Source: Allochromatium tepidum (lineage in GTDB: Bacteria > Pseudomonadota > Gammaproteobacteria > Chromatiales > Chromatiaceae). Taken from it: a stretch of 64,000 bases of DNA. The notes beneath the pieces were generated by a model. The model did no database searches. It was not told where the DNA came from and saw only the letters and a list, made by a program, of their open reading frames with translations. Both the position numbers and the translations under genes were made by a program. The stretch spans positions 2,906,001 through 2,970,000 of the forward strand of contig NZ_AP024563.1 of the NCBI RefSeq assembly GCF_018409545.1, given 5' to 3'. This document shows, one piece after another, positions 1,505-10,812 of this stretch (position 1 is the first letter of the stretch; the number at the start of each line of letters is the position of its first letter).

Positions 1505-1750
1505 TCAGTCCTCCGGCCAGTGGTCGATGATGCCGACGATGGTCAGATCGCTCGGGTAGTCCTTGTGGCCGGCGGCCTCGCGTGCCGCCGAGCTGCCGAC
1601 GCAGATCACCCAGTCGCCGGGGGTGCAGCCCACGGCATCGACTGCGACCATCCGGCTCTTGCCGTCGAGCACCACCTGGAGATGACGATGCTCCAGTCCG
1701 GGGATGCGGTTGGTCGCGACCAGCGGCTTTTCGACGCGACAGATCTTCAT
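1505..1750 (-). CDS. csoS4A: Carboxysome vertex pentamer protein CsoS4A
   Basis: An 81-residue BMC-vertex protein beginning MKICRVEKPLVATNRIPGLE and ending IVGIIDHWPED. Like CsoS4B it forms a pentamer at the shell vertices, where its loss makes carboxysomes leaky in known systems. The start at 1750 overlaps the csoSCA stop by 4 bp, which argues against the longer upstream reading frame and for coupled translation. It is paralogous to CsoS4B next door. Confidence 0.94.
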   Translation of the reverse strand: MKICRVEKPLVATNRIPGLEHRHLQVVLDGKSRMVAVDAVGCTPGDWVICVGSSAAREAAGHKDYPSDLTIVGIIDHWPED

Positions 1751-3279
1751 GCCGTCCTCCCGCCGAGCAGTGAGCCGCCGACCGGCTCCAGTCGTCCGTG
1801 GCCCTGGCTGTCGCGCACCGTCCAGTAGGTGTGGAGCAGGCCGTGGTCGGCCAGATCCGAATAGCGCTGGGCGATGGCCTCGGCGAGGCGTTCGCAACGT
1901 TCGATCGCTCGTTCGCGCGCGCCCGGCACCTGTCCCGAGTACTCGACGCGCAGGACGATCGGGATCGGCAGTCCATGCTCGACGTTGAGCTGACGGAAGA
2001 TCTTGATGCCGACGTCCAGGTTGCAGGCGCCCTCTTCCAGGGTGCGCAGAAAGCTGAAATAGGTCAGGTTGCGCAGATGGATCTCGGCGAAATCCATCCC
2101 GACCCCGATGAAACGCTCCTCGTGTCCGATGTCGGTGTAGTGGCCGTTGTGATAGTCACGCACATAGTCGAGCTGCGAGATGTTGTGCTCGATCAGACGC
2201 GCGATCAGACGCTGCATCCCGGGCGCTGGGGCCGGACCGCCGCCGCTCGGGTTGGCCACGCGCTCACGGATCAGGGCGCGCGCCGCCTCGGGGTCGAGCC
2301 GTGCGGTCTCGCGATGGAGCGCGCCGGCGTCGACGAAACGGTCCAGATCGGCATCGCCGCGTGCGTCGGGCAGATGCAGACGCAAGCGGTCGGTGTCGGT
2401 GTCGATGCCGATGAGCAGGCCCTCGATCGAGGCGCCGCAGCAGTAGCTGTTCTCGACCGCCTCGCGGAAGGCGTGCAGACGCTCGCGTCCGGCGGCGGCG
2501 GCCTGGCGGGTGTCGCTGCCGTGGGCCGCGCAGCCGTGATGCTCGGGGTCGCGGCTGCTGTAGTGATAGACGACCACCTTCAGATAGCGGGTCGGGGCGT
2601 CGGCGGTGTTGGGCACGCCTTCGCGGAAGCGTCCGAGTTCCACCGCCGACCAGCGCTCGAGCGCCTCCTCGATGTCGAAGAGCGCGCCGGCGTTGGCGCG
2701 GCGCTGGACGGCGCCCATCGGCAACCGCAACACATAGCGGATGGCGTGGGCCAGACGTCCGTCCGAGCAGGGCGTGACGTTCATGGCATGGAAGCCGCAG
2801 TCGAGCAGGAAGCGACGGAATTCATCGGACTGGCCGCGATCGTCGAGCGGGTCGGTCGTGAAGTAGTCATCGCTCATGGCCCGCACGGTCTCGAAGGTGG
2901 CGTGCGCGAAGAGCGCGCGCCGGTCGAGTCCGGCGACCCAGGCGTCGGCCAGCAGCGATTCGGGCAACTCGAAACCGAGTGTCCGACGCACCTCGGCCTG
3001 TGCCCAGTCCTCGAAACCGGCGTCCGGGACGCGGGCGGCGATGGACTTGAGCGTCGGCACGATGCGCGCGAAGGCGCCCTTGATCCGCTGCTCGTAGGCC
3101 CACAGCCGCCGGTTCTCGTCCAGGCGGGTGAGCGGATGCGTCCCCGTCCGACCGATCCCATCCGGCGATCCGGCGGACTCAGGCGCAACCTGAGTCGTGC
3201 CGACCGGAGCGGCGGGCGTGCTCGTCCAGGAGGCTGGGCGGACGCGCCGGCGTGACTGTGACTTGGGCTTGATGCGCAT
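1747..3279 (-). CDS. csoSCA: Carboxysomal beta-type carbonic anhydrase CsoSCA (CsoS3)
   Basis: A 510-residue divergent beta-carbonic anhydrase that converts bicarbonate to CO2 inside the carboxysome, next to RuBisCO. The catalytic half shows the beta-CA signatures CSDGR (C171, D173, R175) and HHGCAAHGSD (about 247-256), which supply likely zinc ligands, followed by SYCCGAS near 278-284. The first 50 residues are Arg/Pro/Thr-rich and low in complexity, like the N-terminal peptide that anchors the enzyme in other cso systems. It lies 30 bp after csoS2 and overlaps csoS4A by 4 bp. Confidence 0.95.
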   Translation of the reverse strand: MRIKPKSQSRRRVRPASWTSTPAAPVGTTQVAPESAGSPDGIGRTGTHPLTRLDENRRLWAYEQRIKGAFARIVPTLKSIAARVPDAGFEDWAQAEVRRTLGFELPESLLADAWVAGLDRRALFAHATFETVRAMSDDYFTTDPLDDRGQSDEFRRFLLDCGFHAMNVTPCSDGRLAHAIRYVLRLPMGAVQRRANAGALFDIEEALERWSAVELGRFREGVPNTADAPTRYLKVVVYHYSSRDPEHHGCAAHGSDTRQAAAAGRERLHAFREAVENSYCCGASIEGLLIGIDTDTDRLRLHLPDARGDADLDRFVDAGALHRETARLDPEAARALIRERVANPSGGGPAPAPGMQRLIARLIEHNISQLDYVRDYHNGHYTDIGHEERFIGVGMDFAEIHLRNLTYFSFLRTLEEGACNLDVGIKIFRQLNVEHGLPIPIVLRVEYSGQVPGARERAIERCERLAEAIAQRYSDLADHGLLHTYWTVRDSQGHGRLEPVGGSLLGGRTA

Positions 3280-3309: not shown

Positions 3310-5622
3310 TCAACCCCGAGCGCCGCCCGAGAGTGTGACCAGGGCGCCGCGCTCGGTACCGCCGCTACCGCCGGTCACGCGCGTTTCGGACTGAGGCCGT
3401 TCGCGATCCCGAGCCTGGGCATCGCGGAAGGCGCGGGCGCCGGCAAAGGCGCCTACGCGCGCGTCACCGCGTCGGGTCGGGTTGCGGCTGTGCGCCGATT
3501 TGCCCTCGGTGCCGGTGACACGCTCGTTGCGGCCCCAGTCGTCACCCGTGATGCGCAGTCCGCCGTCCAGACCTTCACCCGTGATGCGTGGGCGTGCCGG
3601 TTCGGGCTCAGCGGCGGTGTCCTCGATCGCGGCTGCTGCCGGCATCGCGGTGGCCGGTCGAGGCGGCATCACGCTGCCGGGACGGGCCGGGCCGGTCTCG
3701 CGACGTTCCTCGGCACGGCGGGCGCGGAAGCCCTCGGTGCCCGTGACCCGGTTGCCGCCCATGTTGAAGGGGCCGGTGATGCGACTCTGCTCTTCGTCGT
3801 AGTGCGTGCCGGTCACCGAGCGGCGTGCCTGCTGCGACTGGGCGGCACGCGCCGGGGTGTCGATGCTGAACTGGCCCCATTGACCGCCGCCGAGCGGCTG
3901 CGGGAAGTCGTCACTGCCCGGCAGGGCCGCGAACTCTTCGCTGCCGCAGGTGGCCAGGAGGTCGTCCCCGCCCAGATAGGGCGTGCCGGTCACGGGCTGG
4001 CAGGCACCCTTGATGTCGCCGGTCATGGCGCCGCCGATCCCCGGCTGGATGCCGGTGAGACCGAAGCCGGGTGTGGAACGGCCCAGCGGCATCCGCTCGG
4101 CGGTCCGGCGTGCCGTCTCCGGACCGCAGTCGGCGGCGATCTGCTCGGCGCCCAGATAGGTGGTGCCGGTGACGATCTCGCAGCGACCGGTCTCGTTGCC
4201 GGTGACGCGCGCCGTGCCGCTGACCAGACTGCCCGTGACCGTCTGGCCGCGCCAGGTGGTGTCGAGTCCGACCTTGAGCGTGCCGACCGGCTCGGGACGG
4301 GTCTTGCAGACGCTGTCGAAGTGCTCGAACCCGAGATATTCGTTGCCCGTCACCCGCTGACAGGCGCCCGATTCGACGCCGGTCAGGGTGTTGTTGCGTC
4401 CGATCAGCGAGCCGGTCACGGTGCGCCCACTGAGGGTCTGGGTCCGGCCGACCTTGGGCGGTGCGCCCTCGGGACCGGGCGCGGTGTAGGGCGTGCCCGT
4501 GAGTTGACGTCCGGCGCCGGTCTCGTCGCCCGTGACCTTGGGGCTGCGTCCGACCTGATCGCCGGTGAGCGTCTGACCGCCGCCGGTGGTTGTGACGGCG
4601 CTCTGACGGTTGGGCGCGGGCGTCGGTCCGATACCGCAGAATTCCTGGAACACCTCGGCGCCCATGTATTCGGTGCCCGTGACCTGACGGCAGGCGCCGG
4701 CCTCGTCGCCCGTGGTGCGCCGGCTGCGCCCGACCTGGGTGCCGGTCAGGGTCTGGCCGGAGGCCGTGGTGCTGACGCCGACCTTGGCAGGTGCGTCACC
4801 GGGCCGTGCGCCGTTGGAGCGACGGGCGCGTCCCGTGGGTCGCGGACCGGATTCGCCGCACTTGCCGTGCTCGCAACGTTCCTCGCGGATGCGCTTGGCG
4901 ATCTCACGCGAGCTGACACCGGCATTGCGTAGCAGATTGGTCGTCGCCGCCTGGCTGGAGCGTCCGCTCACCGAATCGACGCCGGTCTTGCCGCGTCCGG
5001 CCAGGGCGGCACGGCGTGCCATCGACAGCATCCGGCCGCGCGAAGGCGCCTTGGCCAGGGTCGGACCGCCGCGCGGACGACCGTTACGCTGACGCTTGTC
5101 GTTGACTGGATTGGCGGTTGCACGCCGCTCGGTCGCCGGCTTGGGTGCGCCGGTCGCTTGAGAACTGTCCGTGGTCACGGTGGCCTGGTCATCGCGTCGG
5201 CGTTCCGAACGCAGTGTCGTCGGCTCCAGACCGGCGATGGCGCGACGCCGGGCGATCGAGGCTTCGCGGCCCACGAGTCCGCTCAGATCGGCCTGATCCG
5301 CCGGCGCCGGACGCGCATAGCCCGGACGTCCGCGAGTGAGTTGATCGCGCCGCGCCATCGAGCGCTTACGGCCTTCCGCCATGGTGACGGAACGGCGGTT
5401 GCGTTCCGGTTTCGCCGGTGCGGGTTCCGAGGCGCTCAGACGCTCACGGAGCGTCATGGGCGCCGGCTCGCCGACCGGAGCACGCTTGGCGCGCCGCGTG
5501 TTCGAGTCTGTGTTCGTGACCGATTCAGGGCTCGGTCGACCCGTTTTACCACCGTTGGCGATGGCGCGGCGCTTGGCGATGGAGGCCGCGCGCCCCGTCA
5601 ACTGTCGTTCTTGATCAGCCAT
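3310..5622 (-). CDS. csoS2: Carboxysome scaffold protein CsoS2
   Basis: A 770-residue intrinsically disordered, basic repeat protein that links RuBisCO to the shell. The N-terminal third carries at least four short Arg-rich helices of the type SIAKRRAIAN, SMARRDQLTR, SIARRRAIAG and SMARRAALAG, which bind RuBisCO in known systems. The middle holds repeated units of the form GQTLTGTQVGRS...TGDE.G.C..VTGT.Y.G with paired cysteines. The C-terminal region has further VTGT-type repeats and ends GALVTLSGGARG, the conserved shell-anchoring tail. It lies between cbbS and csoSCA. I could not judge whether a programmed frameshift makes a short form, as in Halothiobacillus. Confidence 0.95.
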   Translation of the reverse strand: MADQERQLTGRAASIAKRRAIANGGKTGRPSPESVTNTDSNTRRAKRAPVGEPAPMTLRERLSASEPAPAKPERNRRSVTMAEGRKRSMARRDQLTRGRPGYARPAPADQADLSGLVGREASIARRRAIAGLEPTTLRSERRRDDQATVTTDSSQATGAPKPATERRATANPVNDKRQRNGRPRGGPTLAKAPSRGRMLSMARRAALAGRGKTGVDSVSGRSSQAATTNLLRNAGVSSREIAKRIREERCEHGKCGESGPRPTGRARRSNGARPGDAPAKVGVSTTASGQTLTGTQVGRSRRTTGDEAGACRQVTGTEYMGAEVFQEFCGIGPTPAPNRQSAVTTTGGGQTLTGDQVGRSPKVTGDETGAGRQLTGTPYTAPGPEGAPPKVGRTQTLSGRTVTGSLIGRNNTLTGVESGACQRVTGNEYLGFEHFDSVCKTRPEPVGTLKVGLDTTWRGQTVTGSLVSGTARVTGNETGRCEIVTGTTYLGAEQIAADCGPETARRTAERMPLGRSTPGFGLTGIQPGIGGAMTGDIKGACQPVTGTPYLGGDDLLATCGSEEFAALPGSDDFPQPLGGGQWGQFSIDTPARAAQSQQARRSVTGTHYDEEQSRITGPFNMGGNRVTGTEGFRARRAEERRETGPARPGSVMPPRPATAMPAAAAIEDTAAEPEPARPRITGEGLDGGLRITGDDWGRNERVTGTEGKSAHSRNPTRRGDARVGAFAGARAFRDAQARDRERPQSETRVTGGSGGTERGALVTLSGGARG

Positions 5623-5779: not shown

Positions 5780-6121
5780 TCAGCGGGCGCGGTGCACCAG
5801 GAAGGAATGTCCCTTGCTCTGGGCGTAGGTGTCGTAGCCGACCAGCCGGACGTGATGGTCCGGATAGCTGCGCCGGCAGGACTCGATCTCGGTCAGGATC
5901 ACGTTCGGATCCTGTTCGCCGAAGAAGGGCATCTTCCACATCGGCCAGTAGTACTCGAAGGCGCGATCCGGATGCTCGTGCTCCAGCGAGGCGTTCCAGC
6001 CGTTGTCGAGGATGTAGAGGATCTGCTCCAGGATCTCCTCGCGGTTGAGCGGCGGCAGATAGGAAAAGGTCTCGTAGCGGCCGATGGTGGCGTGATCGCC
6101 CATGCTGCTCGCGGTGTTCAT
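5780..6121 (-). CDS. cbbS: RuBisCO small subunit (form IA, carboxysomal)
   Basis: A 113-residue small subunit completing the L8S8 enzyme. It shows [32 protein letters not shown] and the C-terminal SFLVHRAR. It follows cbbL by 47 bp on the minus strand. An AGAGG-like ribosome site lies about 9 bp before the ATG at 6121; an internal ATG at 6103 (MGDHATIG) is an alternative start. The 157-bp gap to csoS2 is GC-rich and could hold a processing hairpin that raises cbbLS over the shell genes, but I did not find a clean one. Confidence 0.96.
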
Positions 6122-6168: not shown

Positions 6169-7584
6169 TCAGGCCGCGTCAAGCTTGTCGACGACGTCGA
6201 ACTCGAACTTGATCTCCTTCCAGGTCTCCATGGCGACGGCCAGCTCCGGGCTGTGACGCGCGGCATCGCTGAGCACTTCGCGGGCGTGCTTCTCGATCTC
6301 GACCCCTTCGTTGCGCGCCTTGACGCAGGCCTCGGTCGCCACGCGGTTGGCCGCCGCGCCGGCCGCGTTGCCCCAGGGATGGCCCTGAGTACCGCCGCCG
6401 AACTGGAGCACCGAGTCGTCGCCGAAGATCGTCACCAGCGCCGGGATGTGCCAGACATGGATACCGCCCGAGGCCACTGCCATCACGCCCGGCATCCCGC
6501 CCCAGTCCTGGTCGAAGAACAGCCCGCGCGAGCGGTCTTCGGGGATGAAGGATTCACGCAGCTGATCGACGAAACCGAGCGTCGACTGCCGATCGCCTTC
6601 CAGCTTGCCGACCACGGTGCCTGTGTGCAGATGGTCGCCGCCCGACAGGCGCAGACACTTGGCGAGCACGCGGAAATGGATACCGTGCTTGGGATTGCGG
6701 TCGATGACCGCGTGCATGGCGCGGTGGATGTGCAGCAGCATGCCGTTGTCGCGGCACCAGTTGGCCAGACTGGTGTTGGCCGTGAAACCGCCGGTGAGGA
6801 AGTCGTGCATGATGATGGGCGCGCCGCATTCCTTGGCGAACTCGGCCCGCTTGAACATCTCCTCGCAGGTCGGGGCGGTCACGTTCAGATAGTGACCCTT
6901 GCGCTCGCCGGTCTCTTCCTGCGCCTTGCGCACGGCCTCGGAGACGAACTCGAAGCGATTCTGCCAGCGCATGAAGGGCTGGGAGTTGACGTTCTCGTCG
7001 TCCTTGGTGAAGTCCAGACCGCCGCGCAGCATCTCATAGACGGCACGGCCATAGTTCTTGGCCGACAGACCCAGCTTGGGCTTGACGGTGGCGCCGAGGA
7101 AGGGACGGCCATACTTGTCCATGCGGTCGCGCTCGACCTGGATGCCGTTGGGCGGGCCGCCGCAGGTCTTCACATAGTGCAGCGGGAAGCGGATGTCTTC
7201 CAGGCGCAGGGCGCGCACCGCCTTGAAGCCGAACACGTTGCCCACCAGCGAGGTGAGCACGTTGACGATCGAGCCTTCCTCGAACAGATCGAGCGGATAG
7301 GCGATGAAGGCATAGAAGCTCTCCTTGTCGCCCGGCACGTCCTCGATGCGATAGGCACGGCCCTTGTAGTAGTCGAGATCGGTCAGCAGATCCGACCAGA
7401 CCGTGGTCCAGGTGCCGGTCGAGGACTCGGCGGCGACGGCGGCGGCGGCCTCCTCGCGTGACACCTTGGCTTGCGGCGTGACCTTGAAACAGGCCAGCAA
7501 GTCGGAATCCAAGGGCACATAGTCCGGGGTCCAGTAGGTCAGGGCGTAATCTTTGACGCCGGCGTCAAACGTCTTCGTGCTCAT
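6169..7584 (-). CDS. cbbL: RuBisCO large subunit (form IA, carboxysomal)
   Basis: A 471-residue catalytic subunit that carboxylates ribulose 1,5-bisphosphate in the Calvin cycle. Active-site signatures seen are TVKPKLGLS (catalytic Lys), [17 protein letters not shown] with the carbamylated Lys and Mg-binding Asp/Glu, and HIHRAMHAV. Sequence style and linkage to csoS2 place it in the form IAc carboxysomal branch. It is the first gene of the cso operon. Upstream is a 219-bp leader region with two dyads (7648-7668 and 7675-7692) and the terminator of the preceding gene, so transcription most likely starts just above it. No cbbR gene is in view. Confidence 0.98.
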
Positions 7585-7647
7585 GATTTACTCCGTTCAA
7601 TGGGTGCGGCCTGAGGTTGCGAAGACGATAAATGGGTCGAACCTCCA

Positions 7648-7668
7648 ATTCCAATCAATTAACGGAAT
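7648..7668. promoter_or_regulatory. Inverted repeat upstream of cbbL, possible LysR/CbbR-type site
   Basis: The arms ATTCC and GGAAT are separated by 11 bp in an AT-rich stretch 64-84 bp before cbbL. The geometry resembles the T-N11-A core that LysR regulators such as CbbR bind. The resemblance is short and could be chance. Confidence 0.35.
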
Positions 7669-7674
7669 GGAACG

Positions 7675-7692
7675 CATCGATGAAAATCGATG
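7675..7692. promoter_or_regulatory. Dyad CATCGA-N6-TCGATG upstream of cbbL (copy 1 of 3)
   Basis: A perfect dyad whose arms extend to CATCGAT/ATCGATG, 91-108 bp upstream of the cbbL start. The same 12 fixed positions with the same 6-bp spacing recur upstream of the SSUL-like gene (8280-8297) and of sulP (10100-10117). The spacing gives T-N12-A, one off the usual LysR core, so the regulator is unknown. Confidence 0.6.
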
Positions 7693-7716
7693 GGTGAAGA
7701 TTTGTGGACACAAACG

Positions 7717-7748
7717 AAAATCAGCGTCCTGCAGGTGCGGGACGCTGA
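7717..7748 (-). terminator. Rho-independent terminator after the SSUL-like gene
   Basis: Read on the minus strand: a perfect 9-bp stem (TCAGCGTCC/GGACGCTGA, 10-nt loop) followed by TTTTCGTTTG. It separates the SSUL-like gene from cbbL, so the two are likely separate transcripts or linked only by readthrough. Confidence 0.75.
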
Positions 7749-7803
7749 TCGGAAGGAAGGAAAATCGCCGGGGACTGTAGGCTGATCGCCGGCCGCAGCC
7801 GGC

Positions 7804-8163
7804 TCAGTGCGGACGATGAACCATGAGCGCCAGCCGACTGCGATAGCTCAGATCCTCGATGCTCAGGCGGATATGATGGTCGCAATGGGCCTGACGACAG
7901 CGCGCGATCGCACCATGCACGGCCGCCATATCGCCGTCGTAACAGCTCGGCGGCTCCCAGGGCTGCCAGGCGGTGTATCTGGACCGGATCTGCTCGGCAT
8001 GTTCGATGGCGATGATGCAGCCGCGATGCAGACAGTGTTCCAGCTGGCTGAGCATCCGTGATTCGGCCGGCCGGAGATGGGCGTCATGGAACCGGGCCGC
8101 CTGGAAGGGAGCGGCATGAATGGCGGCAGGTGCTGTCGTCTGGGCAAAGGCGGCGGTCGGCAT
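7804..8163 (-). CDS. Stand-alone RuBisCO small-subunit-like (SSUL-type) protein
   Basis: A 119-residue protein with an Ala-rich leader (about residues 1-35) and one globular domain. The domain follows the small-subunit plan: MLSQLEHCLHRGCIIAIEHA, SRYTAWQPWEPPSC, a helix AAVHGAIARCRQAH, then HHIRLSIEDL and a final LMVHRPH. Motif by motif it looks closer to the SSUL modules of CcmM (GYRIG.EHAD..R.R...WQ.C and VRL.GID...R......QRP, as I recall them) than to the CbbS two genes away. Five cysteines (44, 49, 74, 89, 94) could be redox-active, as in CcmM. It sits 220 bp upstream of cbbL and shares its dyad operator. A RuBisCO-binding or assembly role is inference. Confidence 0.6.
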   Translation of the reverse strand: MPTAAFAQTTAPAAIHAAPFQAARFHDAHLRPAESRMLSQLEHCLHRGCIIAIEHAEQIRSRYTAWQPWEPPSCYDGDMAAVHGAIARCRQAHCDHHIRLSIEDLSYRSRLALMVHRPH

Positions 8164-8279
8164 CGGAACACCTCACTCGATCGAGTTTGAAGTCGGTAGG
8201 GAAGCCGGACGGCTTCCGTCGTCGAGTTCAGAATAGTACCTGAGCGCCAAACTCGGAAATTGAGATTGTCCGCAGGCGG

Positions 8280-8297
8280 CATCGAATCCGGTCGATG
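8280..8297. promoter_or_regulatory. Dyad CATCGA-N6-TCGATG upstream of the SSUL-like gene (copy 2 of 3)
   Basis: The arms extend to 8 bp (GGCATCGA/TCGATGCC, 8278-8299). It lies 117-134 bp upstream of the SSUL-like gene and 29 bp past the sulP stop. It could in principle also act as a sulP 3' hairpin, but no T-run follows on the minus strand. Confidence 0.55.
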
Positions 8298-8325
8298 CCT
8301 CAGACACCCGCATCGCGTGTAGCCA

Positions 8326-10017
8326 TCAAGCGACGACGGCCTCCGGCTTGGTCAAGGGAACCGGACGCGGACTCGCCGCCAACAACGCCTCGGCCCGCTC
8401 CAGCGCCTCCTGACTGCTCGACACCACCTGCTCGGCCGGCAGCCGCGCCGTGATCCCGAGCCGGTCGAGCCGCTGCCGGACATCGCCTTCGGCCCCCGCG
8501 ATCAACACCTGCCGCCCCGCTTCGAGATCCTCCAGCACCATCTTCTCCAGCGCCAGCGAGGACGACACCCCGAGCGTCGGCACATCGCTGAAGTCCAGGA
8601 TCAGCACCTGATGCTCCTCCAGCACCGCATGTTGACGCGCGATCGCCTTGGCCACACCGAAGATGAGCGGCCCGCCGAGCTTGAACAGCAGAATGCGCCC
8701 ATTGGCGCGTTCCAGCACCGCCTGCTCGTCGCGCGTCAGCGACTCGGAGCCATCCGGATGCCGGATCGCTTTTACAGAACGGCTCTGGATCCGGCACAGC
8801 CGATCGATGGTCAGGACGTTGGCGATGAAGACCCCGACCGCCACCGCCGTGATCAGATCGACGAACACCGTCAGCCCGATCACGCCGTACATGATCAGGG
8901 TCGCGCGCGGCGAGACACGATGCGCCCGTTTGAGGAAGGACCAGTCGATGATGTCCAGCCCGACCTTGAAGGCGATGCCGGCCAGCACCGCGAGCGGGAT
9001 CTGCGCCGTGAGTCCGGCGGCCCAGAGCACCACCACCATCAGGATCAGGGCGCGCGCGATGCCGGAGAGCGCGCTACGTGCCCCGGTCTGGATGTTGACC
9101 ACGGTGCCCATGGTCGCCCCGGCTCCCGGAATACCGCCGAACAGGCCCGAGGCCAGATTGCCCAATCCCTGCCCGATCAGCTCCTTGTTGGAGTCGTGCT
9201 CCTTGCGCGTGAGGCTCTCGGCGATCACCGAGGTCAGTAGGGCATCGATGCTGCCGAGCACGGCCAGCACCCCGGCGTTGAGGGCCATGAGTCGCCATTG
9301 ATCGGCATCGAACACCGGGAGATGGAGGCTGGGCAGTCCGCCGGGGATCTCGCCGATGCGCCGCAGATCGACGTCACCGAGCATCAGGATCGAGATCAGG
9401 GTGCCGAGCACCAGGGCCAGCAGTTGCGGCGGCAGATAGGTCTTGAGTCGCTTGGGGAAGAAGAGGATGAGCGCCAGGGTCATGAGCGCCAGCCCGACTT
9501 CGGCCGGCACGAGATTCTTGATCAGCTCGGGCAGTGCGCCGAGTGTCCCCAGCACCCCGCCCGCCGGCGTGGCCTGCCCGAGGAAGGGGCCGATCTGGAG
9601 GATGATCAGAATGACCCCGATCCCGGTCATGAACCCCGAGATGACCGTATAGGGCATCATGGTGACGTATTTGCCGAGCTTGAGCGCGCCGAAGAGCATC
9701 TGGAGCAGGCCGGCCATCATGACCACGGTGAAGGCCATCGCCAGCCCTTGCTCGGGGTTGACGGCGATCAGGTTGGCGATGATCGCCGTCATCACCACGG
9801 TCATGGGGCCGGTCGGTTCGGAGATGAGCGTGGGCGTGCTGCCGAAGAGTGCGGCGAAGAGTCCGACCAGCACCGCGCCATAGAGTCCGGCGGCGGGTCC
9901 GGCTCCGGAGGCCACACCGAAGGCCAGGGCCATGGGCAGCGCCACCACGGCGGCCGTCACGCCGCCGAAGAGGTCGCCGCTTAGGTTGTCGAAGCGGATT
10001 TCGTTGAGTAGTCGCAT
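8326..10017 (-). CDS. SulP-family anion transporter with STAS domain, candidate bicarbonate importer
   Basis: A 563-residue inner-membrane protein with about 12-14 hydrophobic segments, beginning MRLLNEIRFDNLSGDLFGGV. SulP features are GVASGAGPAAGLYGA, TGPMTVVMTAII and SGLFGGIPGAGATMGTVVNI. Residues about 440-540 form a cytoplasmic STAS domain (VLILDFSDVPTLGVSSSLAL). The family moves sulfate, bicarbonate (BicA) and other anions. Its place beside the carboxysome operon and the shared dyad CATCGA-N6-TCGATG argue for Na+-dependent bicarbonate uptake here. Substrate is inferred and sulfate remains possible in a sulfur bacterium. Confidence 0.85.
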   Translation of the reverse strand: MRLLNEIRFDNLSGDLFGGVTAAVVALPMALAFGVASGAGPAAGLYGAVLVGLFAALFGSTPTLISEPTGPMTVVMTAIIANLIAVNPEQGLAMAFTVVMMAGLLQMLFGALKLGKYVTMMPYTVISGFMTGIGVILIILQIGPFLGQATPAGGVLGTLGALPELIKNLVPAEVGLALMTLALILFFPKRLKTYLPPQLLALVLGTLISILMLGDVDLRRIGEIPGGLPSLHLPVFDADQWRLMALNAGVLAVLGSIDALLTSVIAESLTRKEHDSNKELIGQGLGNLASGLFGGIPGAGATMGTVVNIQTGARSALSGIARALILMVVVLWAAGLTAQIPLAVLAGIAFKVGLDIIDWSFLKRAHRVSPRATLIMYGVIGLTVFVDLITAVAVGVFIANVLTIDRLCRIQSRSVKAIRHPDGSESLTRDEQAVLERANGRILLFKLGGPLIFGVAKAIARQHAVLEEHQVLILDFSDVPTLGVSSSLALEKMVLEDLEAGRQVLIAGAEGDVRQRLDRLGITARLPAEQVVSSSQEALERAEALLAASPRPVPLTKPEAVVA

Positions 10018-10099
10018 GGCTTGGCACCGAGGGCTGTTGCATTCAGCCTATCTAAAGCGCCAGTGGCCATCGATTCAAAGTGATAATATTGATTGAATA

Positions 10100-10117
10100 C
10101 ATCGAATATCATCGATG
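10100..10117. promoter_or_regulatory. Dyad CATCGA-N6-TCGATG upstream of sulP (copy 3 of 3)
   Basis: It lies 83-100 bp before the sulP start in a markedly AT-rich 120-bp intergenic stretch. The fixed arms match the copies before cbbL and the SSUL-like gene. The three central hexamers differ (TGAAAA, ATCCGG, ATATCA), as expected for operator spacers. Confidence 0.58.
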
Positions 10118-10144: not shown

Positions 10145-10390
10145 CTACGCACTTGGCCACTCATCACCGGGAAGCGGCGGGGCGTCGGGGGCGAGGTCCA
10201 AGAGTTGCAGAAAGTCTTCACGCCGGCCTTTGGCGGCTTCGGTACGCAGATAATCGAGTGTGAGTACGGCGGCCATTTTTTCGGCGGCGGCGCTGGCGAT
10301 GAATTGGTTGACGGAAATTTGATCTCGTGCAGCGAGTTCTTTGATGGTTTGGTGCACGGAGTTGGGTAGACGGATGGTGAGTGCGCTCAT
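10145..10390 (-). CDS. Antitoxin of a PIN-type toxin-antitoxin pair (HicB-like/ribbon-helix-helix)
   Basis: An 81-residue protein starting MSALTIRLPNSVHQTIKELA, the N-terminal strand-helix-helix of small ribbon-helix-helix DNA-binding antitoxins, with VNQFIASAAAEKM as the second helix. The C-terminal half (EDFLQLLDLAPDAPPLPGDE) is acidic and likely masks the toxin. Its ATG overlaps the toxin stop by 4 bp (toxin gene first). Such antitoxins usually repress their own promoter. The pair is probably accessory; the flanking genes are core metabolism. Confidence 0.8.
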   Translation of the reverse strand: MSALTIRLPNSVHQTIKELAARDQISVNQFIASAAAEKMAAVLTLDYLRTEAAKGRREDFLQLLDLAPDAPPLPGDEWPSA

Positions 10391-10812
10391 GGGGAGGTTT
10401 CCTCAAGCGAGTGAAGGAATTGCGCGGGCGTCACGGCTTGCACGCCGAATGATTCGGTACGTCGGAAGTCGTTCAGGTTGTGGGTGACGATGAAGCGACT
10501 GCCCGAGGCGACGGCGCATTCGAGCACCATGTCGTCGTTGGGATCGCGCAGGACGGGGCGCCAGAGGTAGTAGATGTCCTGTAGATGCGCGATCGAGGCG
10601 AGATAGTGCACGAAGGCGAGTGCTTGGGCGGGTGTGGCGCCGGGGGGCAGGTGTTCGGGGCGTGTCAGGACGGCTTGCCACTCCGTGTAGAGTGCGACTG
10701 AGAGGGCGGGGCGGAAGCGTGGGTGCGGCAGGCGGCGTAGCAGGGCATGGCTGGCGCCGGTTCGGGATCGCAAGGCCGCGACAAGGACGGAGGTGTCAAG
10801 GACGATGTTCAT
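10387..10812 (-). CDS. PIN-domain toxin (ribonuclease) of a toxin-antitoxin pair
   Basis: A 141-residue PIN-domain protein. The nuclease acidic residues are seen in MNIVLDTSVLVAAL (first Asp), the central PNDDMVLECAVASG and FIVTHNLNDF. Such proteins cut RNA when freed from the antitoxin. It is of the type annotated as the PIN-family component of putative toxin-antitoxin systems. It is translationally coupled to the antitoxin gene downstream. The RNA target cannot be told from the sequence. Confidence 0.85.
   Translation of the reverse strand: MNIVLDTSVLVAALRSRTGASHALLRRLPHPRFRPALSVALYTEWQAVLTRPEHLPPGATPAQALAFVHYLASIAHLQDIYYLWRPVLRDPNDDMVLECAVASGSRFIVTHNLNDFRRTESFGVQAVTPAQFLHSLEETSP

Follow-up and report, generated by a model that had tools for sequence, protein, structure and literature searches.

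Cyanobacterial CcmR and CmpR are LysR regulators that tie bicarbonate transporters to the carbon supply, and OxyR-like LysR sites have the form ATAG-N7-CTAT. LysR sites usually comprise a primary site near -65 and a second near -35. The co-ordination of alpha-carboxysomes with bicarbonate uptake in proteobacteria is, to our knowledge, less well known than in cyanobacteria. The closest described operators are the CbbR sites of the Acidithiobacillus ferrooxidans cbb operons, given in the available part of that report as T-N11-A or TNA-N7-TNA (PMC2942843). According to the accessible part of a second account, a SulP protein of A. ferrooxidans is a predicted bicarbonate transporter, and the transcripts of its cluster fall as CO2 rises (PMC6458275); cso (carboxysome) clusters have been divided, in the part of the source at hand, into those with and those without a divergent cbbR (PMC1904183). 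Here we analyse a stretch of 64,000 nucleotides of the Allochromatium tepidum genome (NZ_AP024563.1, positions 2,906,001 to 2,970,000; hereafter the window), in which the dyad CATCGA-N6-TCGATG stands before the carboxysomal RuBisCO gene cbbL1, a RuBisCO small-subunit-like (SSUL-like) gene and the transporter gene sulP. The evidence supports well a real and conserved inorganic-carbon regulon headed by this dyad, with a LysR regulator of the CbbR type as the leading candidate for the protein that reads it.

Results

A pattern scan of the 64-kb window for the exact dyad returned three sites and no others, as a sequence-only reading of this DNA had stated when it reported three copies sharing 12 fixed bases and a 6-bp spacing:

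7675..7692, minus strand: dyad before cbbL1, exact match; proposed high-affinity regulator site
8280..8297, minus strand: dyad before the SSUL-like gene, exact match; 28 bp past the sulP stop codon
10100..10117, minus strand: dyad before sulP/bicA, exact match

All three are intergenic and precede genes on the minus strand, at distances of 91 bp from the start codon of cbbL1 (7584), 117 bp from that of the SSUL-like gene (8163) and 83 bp from that of sulP (10017), in agreement with the earlier placement upstream of carbon genes. Dinucleotide shuffles of the window gave a mean of 0.05 exact sites, with three or more in 0 of 100, which bears out the judgement that such recurrence is unlikely by chance; when up to two mismatches were allowed, the count in the window was ordinary (8 found, 7.4 expected). 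The whole source genome (3.38 Mb in two contigs) holds four exact dyads, and the pattern read backwards has no match in it. The fourth copy (C1:934679-934696) falls outside the window, in the cbbL2-cbbS2 spacer of a second RuBisCO operon, and 4/4 exact dyads of the genome adjoin RuBisCO, carboxysome or bicarbonate-transporter genes; the genome-wide search thus found a motif that is not scattered at random in coding DNA. A two-mismatch scan of the genome gave 204 places. Among the matches listed, seven had a single mismatch, five within called open reading frames (ORFs) and two between genes without a known carbon role, and none of the seven lies beside carbon genes. Widening the pattern to CATHGA-N6-TCDATG in the genus added one place in the source genome, inside a 423-aa ORF with identical letters in one compared genome (G002), and no new target there. 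In what follows G000 denotes the source genome, other G numbers the compared genomes and L numbers the fetched stretches.

Conservation of the dyad

Eight Allochromatium genomes contain 24 exact dyads, 18 of which flank the same carbon genes (G000 4, G001 4, G002 1, G003 2, G005 3, G006 4). The six copies without a carbon link lie in IleRS-type genes (two), a pentapeptide-repeat gene (one) and a MazE-like ORF (one), while the last two overlap each other near the start of a small ORF without a Pfam match. In G005 the sulP-SSUL pair lies 2.07 Mb from the carboxysomal cbbL on the contig, and all three dyads are still exact. The carboxysome cluster of this genome (L056 1-5300) is seemingly decaying, with broken csoS2 and csoSCA frames and csoSCA cut off. 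The dyad between cbbL2 and cbbS2 is absent in G002, G003, G005 and G007, though the cbbL2 operon is present there.

At the level of the family Chromatiaceae, 35 of 116 genomes carry an exact dyad. The 112 genomes outside the genus hold 41 exact copies, 12 carbon-linked and 29 without a carbon link; of the latter, only part of which were classified, several lie inside ORFs, and the background amounts to about one unlinked exact copy per four family genomes. Outside the genus, exact dyads stand upstream of the SSUL-like gene (G016, G029, G033, G080, G106, G108), upstream of sulP (G106) and between cbbL2 and cbbS2 (G029, G037, G106), and genes for another SulP type have one 84 bp (G105) or 124 bp (G093) before the first start codon. 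A further exact dyad, in G082 (L149 6747), lies amid pyrG-like, FNR-like and cbb3-oxidase-like genes named by eye and may be due to chance.

Orthologous upstream regions were compared with a relaxed form, ATNGA-N6-TCNAT. Regions with identical last 60 bases were merged (G033 at cbbL1, G006 at sulP), and the counts leave out a repeat stretch of G048 (L157) and the cbbL1 row of L111 (34% identity, off target). The relaxed form was exact in 12 of 13 distinct cbbL1 regions, starting at -108 in 10 of them. In all 11 distinct sulP regions the best site lay at -97 to -103 (nine exact, two with one mismatch). Exact relaxed sites also preceded 17 of 19 orthologues of the SSUL-like gene and were present in 6/6 cbbS2 upstream regions. 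The motif is therefore conserved upstream of its orthologues in Allochromatium and in other Chromatiaceae.

Beyond the family, the cbbL1 search covered 369 genomes of the class Gammaproteobacteria, and the loci compared are the best 30 matches, of which 29 remain once the source genome is set aside (28 of other families and one of Chromatiaceae). Among these 29 upstream regions the relaxed form was exact in 15 and within one mismatch in 21, compared with shuffle values of 0.23 (maximum 3 in 300) and 4.1 (maximum 10) for the same regions. When spacings from 0 to 13 were compared, exact matches numbered 15 at spacing 6 and at most 3 at any other; with one mismatch allowed, spacing 6 gave 21, spacing 10 gave 16 and spacing 0 gave 13. 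Five cbbL promoters (L199, L201, L204, L223, L225) have a second, one-mismatch dyad that starts exactly 49 bp after the first; weaker second dyads at 48 bp were observed at the cbbL promoters of L210 and L215. Other genes preceded by the dyad are an Sbt_1-family gene (sbtA) in G172, at a distance of 72 bp, a NuoL-like gene and dabA (dabBA) in G414, a gene for a second SulP type in G198 and, at about 180 bp, a BMC-domain shell-protein gene in G271.

The recurrence could in principle be an accident of a TCGA-rich genome, and nothing speaks in its favour beyond the background of unlinked exact copies outside the genus. Set against this are the three copies in 2.5 kb, the carbon genes beside every copy in the source genome, the conserved positions and the enrichment of exact matches at spacing 6 alone, and the likelihood of this explanation is, in our view, negligible. 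Chance was rejected on the basis of the shuffles, the genome count and the conserved sites at cbbL promoters. The sequence-only reading had proposed a dedicated inorganic-carbon regulon with a dimeric DNA site; with the genome copies all at carbon genes and conserved in orthologues, that proposal is well supported by comparison, and the underlying observation was correct and understated.

Half-sites and the RNA alternative

Across 41 family sites (82 half-sites), the half-site reads (C/T/G)-A-T-(C 62, A 17, T 3)-G-A; in choosing the sites, positions 1 and 4 alone were left free, while G5 and A6 were fixed and at most one mismatch was accepted. In the 15 sites of the class set, position 4 is A in 23 of 30 half-sites, and the relaxed form beyond the family usually reads CATAGA-N6-TCTATG. 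Because A predominates there, CATAGA appears to be the commoner dyad, of which the CATCGA of these Chromatiaceae would be a local form. Position 4 differs between the two arms in 6 of the 41 family sites; RNA pairing is broken at such sites, whose unequal arms suit a protein dimer with two half-sites.

The positions of the dyads were compared with predicted promoters, and two degenerate second dyads were recognised from conserved columns:

7625..7654, minus strand: predicted cbbL1 promoter TTGGAA-N18-TATCGT (hexamer scan); dyad centre at about -65.5
8230..8258, minus strand: predicted SSUL-like promoter TTCCGA-N17-TATTCT (hexamer scan, not the top pair); dyad centre at about -65.5
10049..10078, minus strand: predicted sulP promoter TTGAAT-N18-TAGATA (hexamer scan, not the top pair); dyad centre at about -66.5
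7651..7669, minus strand: degenerate second dyad CATTC...TTGATTGG before cbbL1 (conserved columns, 12 aligned promoters); proposed activation site
10076..10094, minus strand: degenerate second dyad AATCAA-N5-TCACTTTG before sulP (conserved columns, 12 aligned promoters); putative activation site

Two other hexamer pairs score equally before cbbL1, where a stricter scan did not find TTGGAA-N18-TATCGT. Judged by eye in the alignment, both second dyads begin 23 bp after the start of the first.

These data also bear on the idea that the motif acts in mRNA, as a stem-loop, and not in DNA as a protein site. Between cbbL2 and cbbS2 the twelve bases cap a stem that is longer by 2 to 7 pairs in 6/6 genomes, a 13-bp perfect stem in the spacer of G000 (L001 1501-1518), and in L111 one pair of this stem is changed on both sides; at SSUL-like sites the stem extends by at least one pair in 9 of 17 cases. 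However, the arms mismatch in 8 of 13 cbbL1 and 6 of 11 sulP regions, and the predicted promoters lie downstream of the dyad, which would accordingly not be transcribed from them. As an account of the motif as a whole, an RNA element is very improbable. With arm pairing broken at cbbL1 and sulP, the hairpin was rejected for these two as the general explanation. From its longer stem and the paired change, the cbbL2-cbbS2 copy probably forms an mRNA stem-loop as well.

The candidate regulator

The cso cluster extends beyond the left edge of the window up to a LysR gene, cbbR1 (G000:C1:2904331-2905308), with which it ends in both G000 (L166 16332-17309) and G006 (L167 15315-16292). The CbbR1 protein of G000 has LysR domains, and CbbR is its best match among the NCBI models, below the cut-off; relatives with at least 55% identity occur in 24 of the 40 family genomes searched. 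CbbR2, encoded divergently from cbbL2, falls in a different clade from CbbR1 in a quick midpoint-rooted tree without support values. The dyad lies between cbbR1 and cbbL in G208 and G240, heads an Sbt_1 gene, a P-II-like gene and cbbR1 in G172, and heads a sulP gene followed by cbbR1 in G093. The gap between a divergent CbbR1-like gene (59% identity) and a second RuBisCO operon, linked to a cbbX gene named by eye, contains two dyads in G037, and in G474 a dyad occupies the gap between a divergent CbbR1-like gene and cbbL.

Linkage was compared over 89 cbbL promoters, which are the higher-ranking cbbL matches used, own genome aside. A linked cbbR1 means one on the same contig, up to about 16 kb away and labelled by hand, at E-value limits of 1e-50 and 1e-95 in two batches, so that only the first batch could include weaker relatives among the linked genes. 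The relaxed site was exact at 18 of 39 promoters with a linked cbbR1 versus 6 of 50 without (Fisher p = 6e-4), and, where csoS2 follows, at 18 of 34 versus 4 of 29 (p = 0.0014). The presence of the same dyad at cbbL promoters across Gammaproteobacteria and near cbbR-type genes makes a CbbR-type LysR regulator the leading candidate. Also in favour of CbbR1 are the constant distance of the site in orthologous promoters of several genera and its retention in the split loci of G005, the unequal arms of six sites, the predicted dyad centres close to the usual position of LysR primary sites, the +23 second dyad common to cbbL1 and sulP, the position of cbbR1 at the end of the Allochromatium gene row that begins with the site, and the separate clades of CbbR1 and CbbR2.

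Several points weigh against CbbR1. The species compared are related, so that the p values overstate independence and are indicative only. When promoters with a divergent LysR gene are set aside, the contrast is just 18/35 versus 4/19 (p = 0.043); the exact site is missing at 21 of the 39 promoters with a linked cbbR1, and in the tree the main CbbR1 clade does not include the CbbR1-like gene of G037. In G005, which has three exact sites, only CbbR2 and no CbbR1 was found; its cso cluster is cut off inside csoSCA, and the loss of CbbR1 may therefore be recent. In G016 (88% complete), which carries an exact site, a CbbR2 relative alone was found. G015 (100% complete) and G271 have a relaxed site at cbbL, and the LysR genes listed for them reach at most 37% CbbR identity; the contig of G271 ends within the carboxysome cluster. 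In G269 and G348 a relaxed site is accompanied by an R2-type gene next to cbbL, and no match to CbbR1 turned up at E <= 1e-95. At sulP, a higher-scoring hexamer pair, ATGATA-N18-TATTAT, overlaps the dyad; were this better pair the promoter in use, the dyad would cover the -35 box, an arrangement that would imply repression. No second dyad was seen by eye at the SSUL-like gene. Finally, the site is T-N12-A with TNNA half-sites, unlike the described CbbR sites, and for this reason we do not class the dyad as a canonical CbbR site and say only that it would work like one. The exceptions either reflect recent losses, contig gaps, cross-recognition by other CbbRs or degenerate sites, or else point to another protein.

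One such protein would be a dimer of, for example, the CRP/FNR family, reading a real carbon regulon in the register xGA-N6-TCx. FNR boxes want T at position 4 (TTGA), and the CRP/FNR site is TTGAT-N4-ATCAA. The core of the dyad does read GA-N6-TC, partly by construction, since G5 and A6 were required in site choice; G015 and G271 keep the site although no CbbR was found in them, and G015 has a CRP/FNR-family gene some 2 kb upstream of cbbL. However, TTGA half-sites are not what the dyad offers, with T at position 4 in only 3 of 82 half-sites (C 62, A 17). CRP/FNR-family genes, searched in eight genomes, are present also in G004 and G007, both without a carbon-linked exact site, and no member listed for G000, G005 or G006 is a neighbour of the cso or sulP loci; cbbR1, by contrast, is close to them in G000 and G006. 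We regard a regulator of this kind as unlikely.

A second possibility is that the site is read by CbbR2, whose gene is divergent from the second RuBisCO operon, or jointly by more than one CbbR type. In 4 of 6 aligned genomes the cbbR2-cbbL2 gap contains a conserved sequence, (C or T)ATAGATCATAAGCTATG, that departs from the relaxed form by a single mismatch; G005 and G016 keep exact sites with CbbR2 alone, relaxed sites lie beside R2-type genes in G269 and G348, and the regulator of G474 is nearest, among the references, to that of G037, itself an outlier to the CbbR1 clade. In contrast, promoters with a divergent LysR gene (mostly R2-type) have an exact relaxed site in only 2 of 35 cases, as opposed to 22 of 54 without one (p = 2e-4), and G007 has CbbR2 but no exact site. 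Action through CbbR2 or a mixture of CbbRs appears unlikely. The (C or T)ATAGATCATAAGCTATG upstream of cbbL2 in L045, L048, L057 and L111 is possibly CbbR2's own site.

We favour, with moderate confidence, the reading that the carboxysome-linked LysR activator CbbR1 recognises the dyad as its primary site; the exceptions listed above and the putative status of the binding keep us from a firmer statement. The sequence-only reading had noted that the spacing is off by one from the LysR core, which is correct (T-N12-A), and had concluded that the regulator may not be CbbR, which this argument does not support. With the dyad at Gammaproteobacteria cbbL promoters and beside or upstream of cbbR-type genes, that doubt was probably misplaced, although G005, G015, G016 and G271, which retain the site with no CbbR1 found, temper this judgement.

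Genes behind the sites

The genes of the window that follow the dyads, and their neighbours, are:

6169..7584, minus strand: cbbL1, carboxysomal RuBisCO large subunit (Pfam RuBisCO_large, 2.7e-137)
5780..6121, minus strand: cbbS1, RuBisCO small subunit (Pfam RuBisCO_small, 3.4e-38)
7804..8163, minus strand: SSUL-like protein, 119 aa (Pfam RuBisCO_small, 6.4e-11)
8326..10017, minus strand: sulP, putative BicA-type bicarbonate transporter with a STAS domain (Pfam Sulfate_transp and STAS)
3310-5622, minus strand: csoS2 (gene order, tblastn in relatives, recognition of sequence)
1747-3279, minus strand: csoSCA (gene order, tblastn in relatives, recognition of sequence)

The sulP product scores 879.0 bits over residues 1-543 on the NCBIfam BicA equivalog, one bit short of the cut-off of 880. 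The small-subunit-like domain of CcmM is subject to redox control through a cysteine pair. The SSUL-like protein matches the NCBIfam model of the CcmM small-subunit-like region at 9.5e-5, far below its cut-off, and among solved structures it matches RuBisCO small subunits best and CcmM small-subunit-like domains weakly; Cys44, 49, 89 and 94 are invariant across six Allochromatium sequences. A profile of the protein had hits at E <= 1e-8 in 21 of 116 family genomes, the weakest of them perhaps ordinary cbbS, and an alignment against named genomes returned only two loci, in Allochromatium humboldtianum and A. palmeri. The second RuBisCO operon runs from cbbL2 and cbbS2 on into a cbbQ-like gene, the last named by eye. 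A HicB/ribbon-helix-helix-like and PIN gene pair, toxin-antitoxin-like, occupies window positions 10145-10812 on the minus strand and separates zwf from the sulP promoter. The distance from zwf to the sulP dyad is 60-65 bp in G001, G005 and G006.

Discussion

A hypothetical course of regulation, built on site positions and gene neighbourhood, would be as follows: (i) at the cbbL1, sulP (BicA) and SSUL-like promoters CbbR1 would occupy the dyad, whose predicted centre is near -65; (ii) the weaker second dyad of cbbL1 and sulP, placed 23 bp further downstream beside the -35 box, would serve as the activation site; (iii) CbbR1 would sense carbon or redox metabolites; and (iv) this sensing would switch the carboxysome, bicarbonate uptake, the SSUL-like protein and cbbR1 itself, presumably co-transcribed with its cluster, together. 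On a wider scale, we lean slightly towards the view that genes behind ATMGA-N6-TCKAT form a CO2-concentrating regulon, whose motif a carboxysome-linked subfamily of CbbR would read throughout Gammaproteobacteria; BicA, a second SulP, SbtA and DabBA would be its interchangeable transporters, and in Chromatiaceae the stand-alone SSUL-like protein would be a member.

One fixed operator at the head of the carboxysome operon, of several kinds of bicarbonate pump and of a RuBisCO small-subunit-like gene makes the regulon testable, and, if the proposal is true, the motif could serve to find new carboxysome and carbon-uptake genes by genome search. Neither the dyad nor a regulon marked by it is named in the titles or abstract starts retrieved from the open-licence literature on CbbR, Allochromatium, carboxysomes, LysR-SbtA, small-subunit-like proteins of Chromatiaceae and Hydrogenovibrio.

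Compared with OxyR-like sites, the dyad shares the inverted ATAG/CTAT half-sites and the arrangement of two consecutive dyads, but it is one base pair wider and has other targets. With cyanobacterial CcmR and CmpR the proposed system would have in common the LysR co-ordination of bicarbonate transporters, in another lineage and with other half-sites. In terms of the published division of cso clusters, insofar as the available part of the source sets it out, the dyad belongs mainly to clusters without a divergent cbbR (PMC1904183). The can-sulP cluster of A. ferrooxidans resembles the present case in a SulP proposed to carry bicarbonate, within a genome whose cbb operons are regulated by CbbR; it differs in that this SulP is paired with a carbonic anhydrase gene, and the accessible part of the account mentions no shared dyad (PMC6458275). 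The A. ferrooxidans CbbR operators, as far as the available part of their description goes, are associated, as is proposed here, with a LysR-type regulator of RuBisCO and carboxysome genes and stand upstream of a sigma-70-like promoter, with two sites forming recognition and activation regions (PMC2942843). In contrast to them, the site described here is ATMGA-N6-TCKAT (T-N12-A), often a perfect palindrome, the candidate regulator gene of Allochromatium ends its cluster rather than being divergent, and the proposed targets include BicA and the SSUL-like protein and, elsewhere, SbtA and DabBA.

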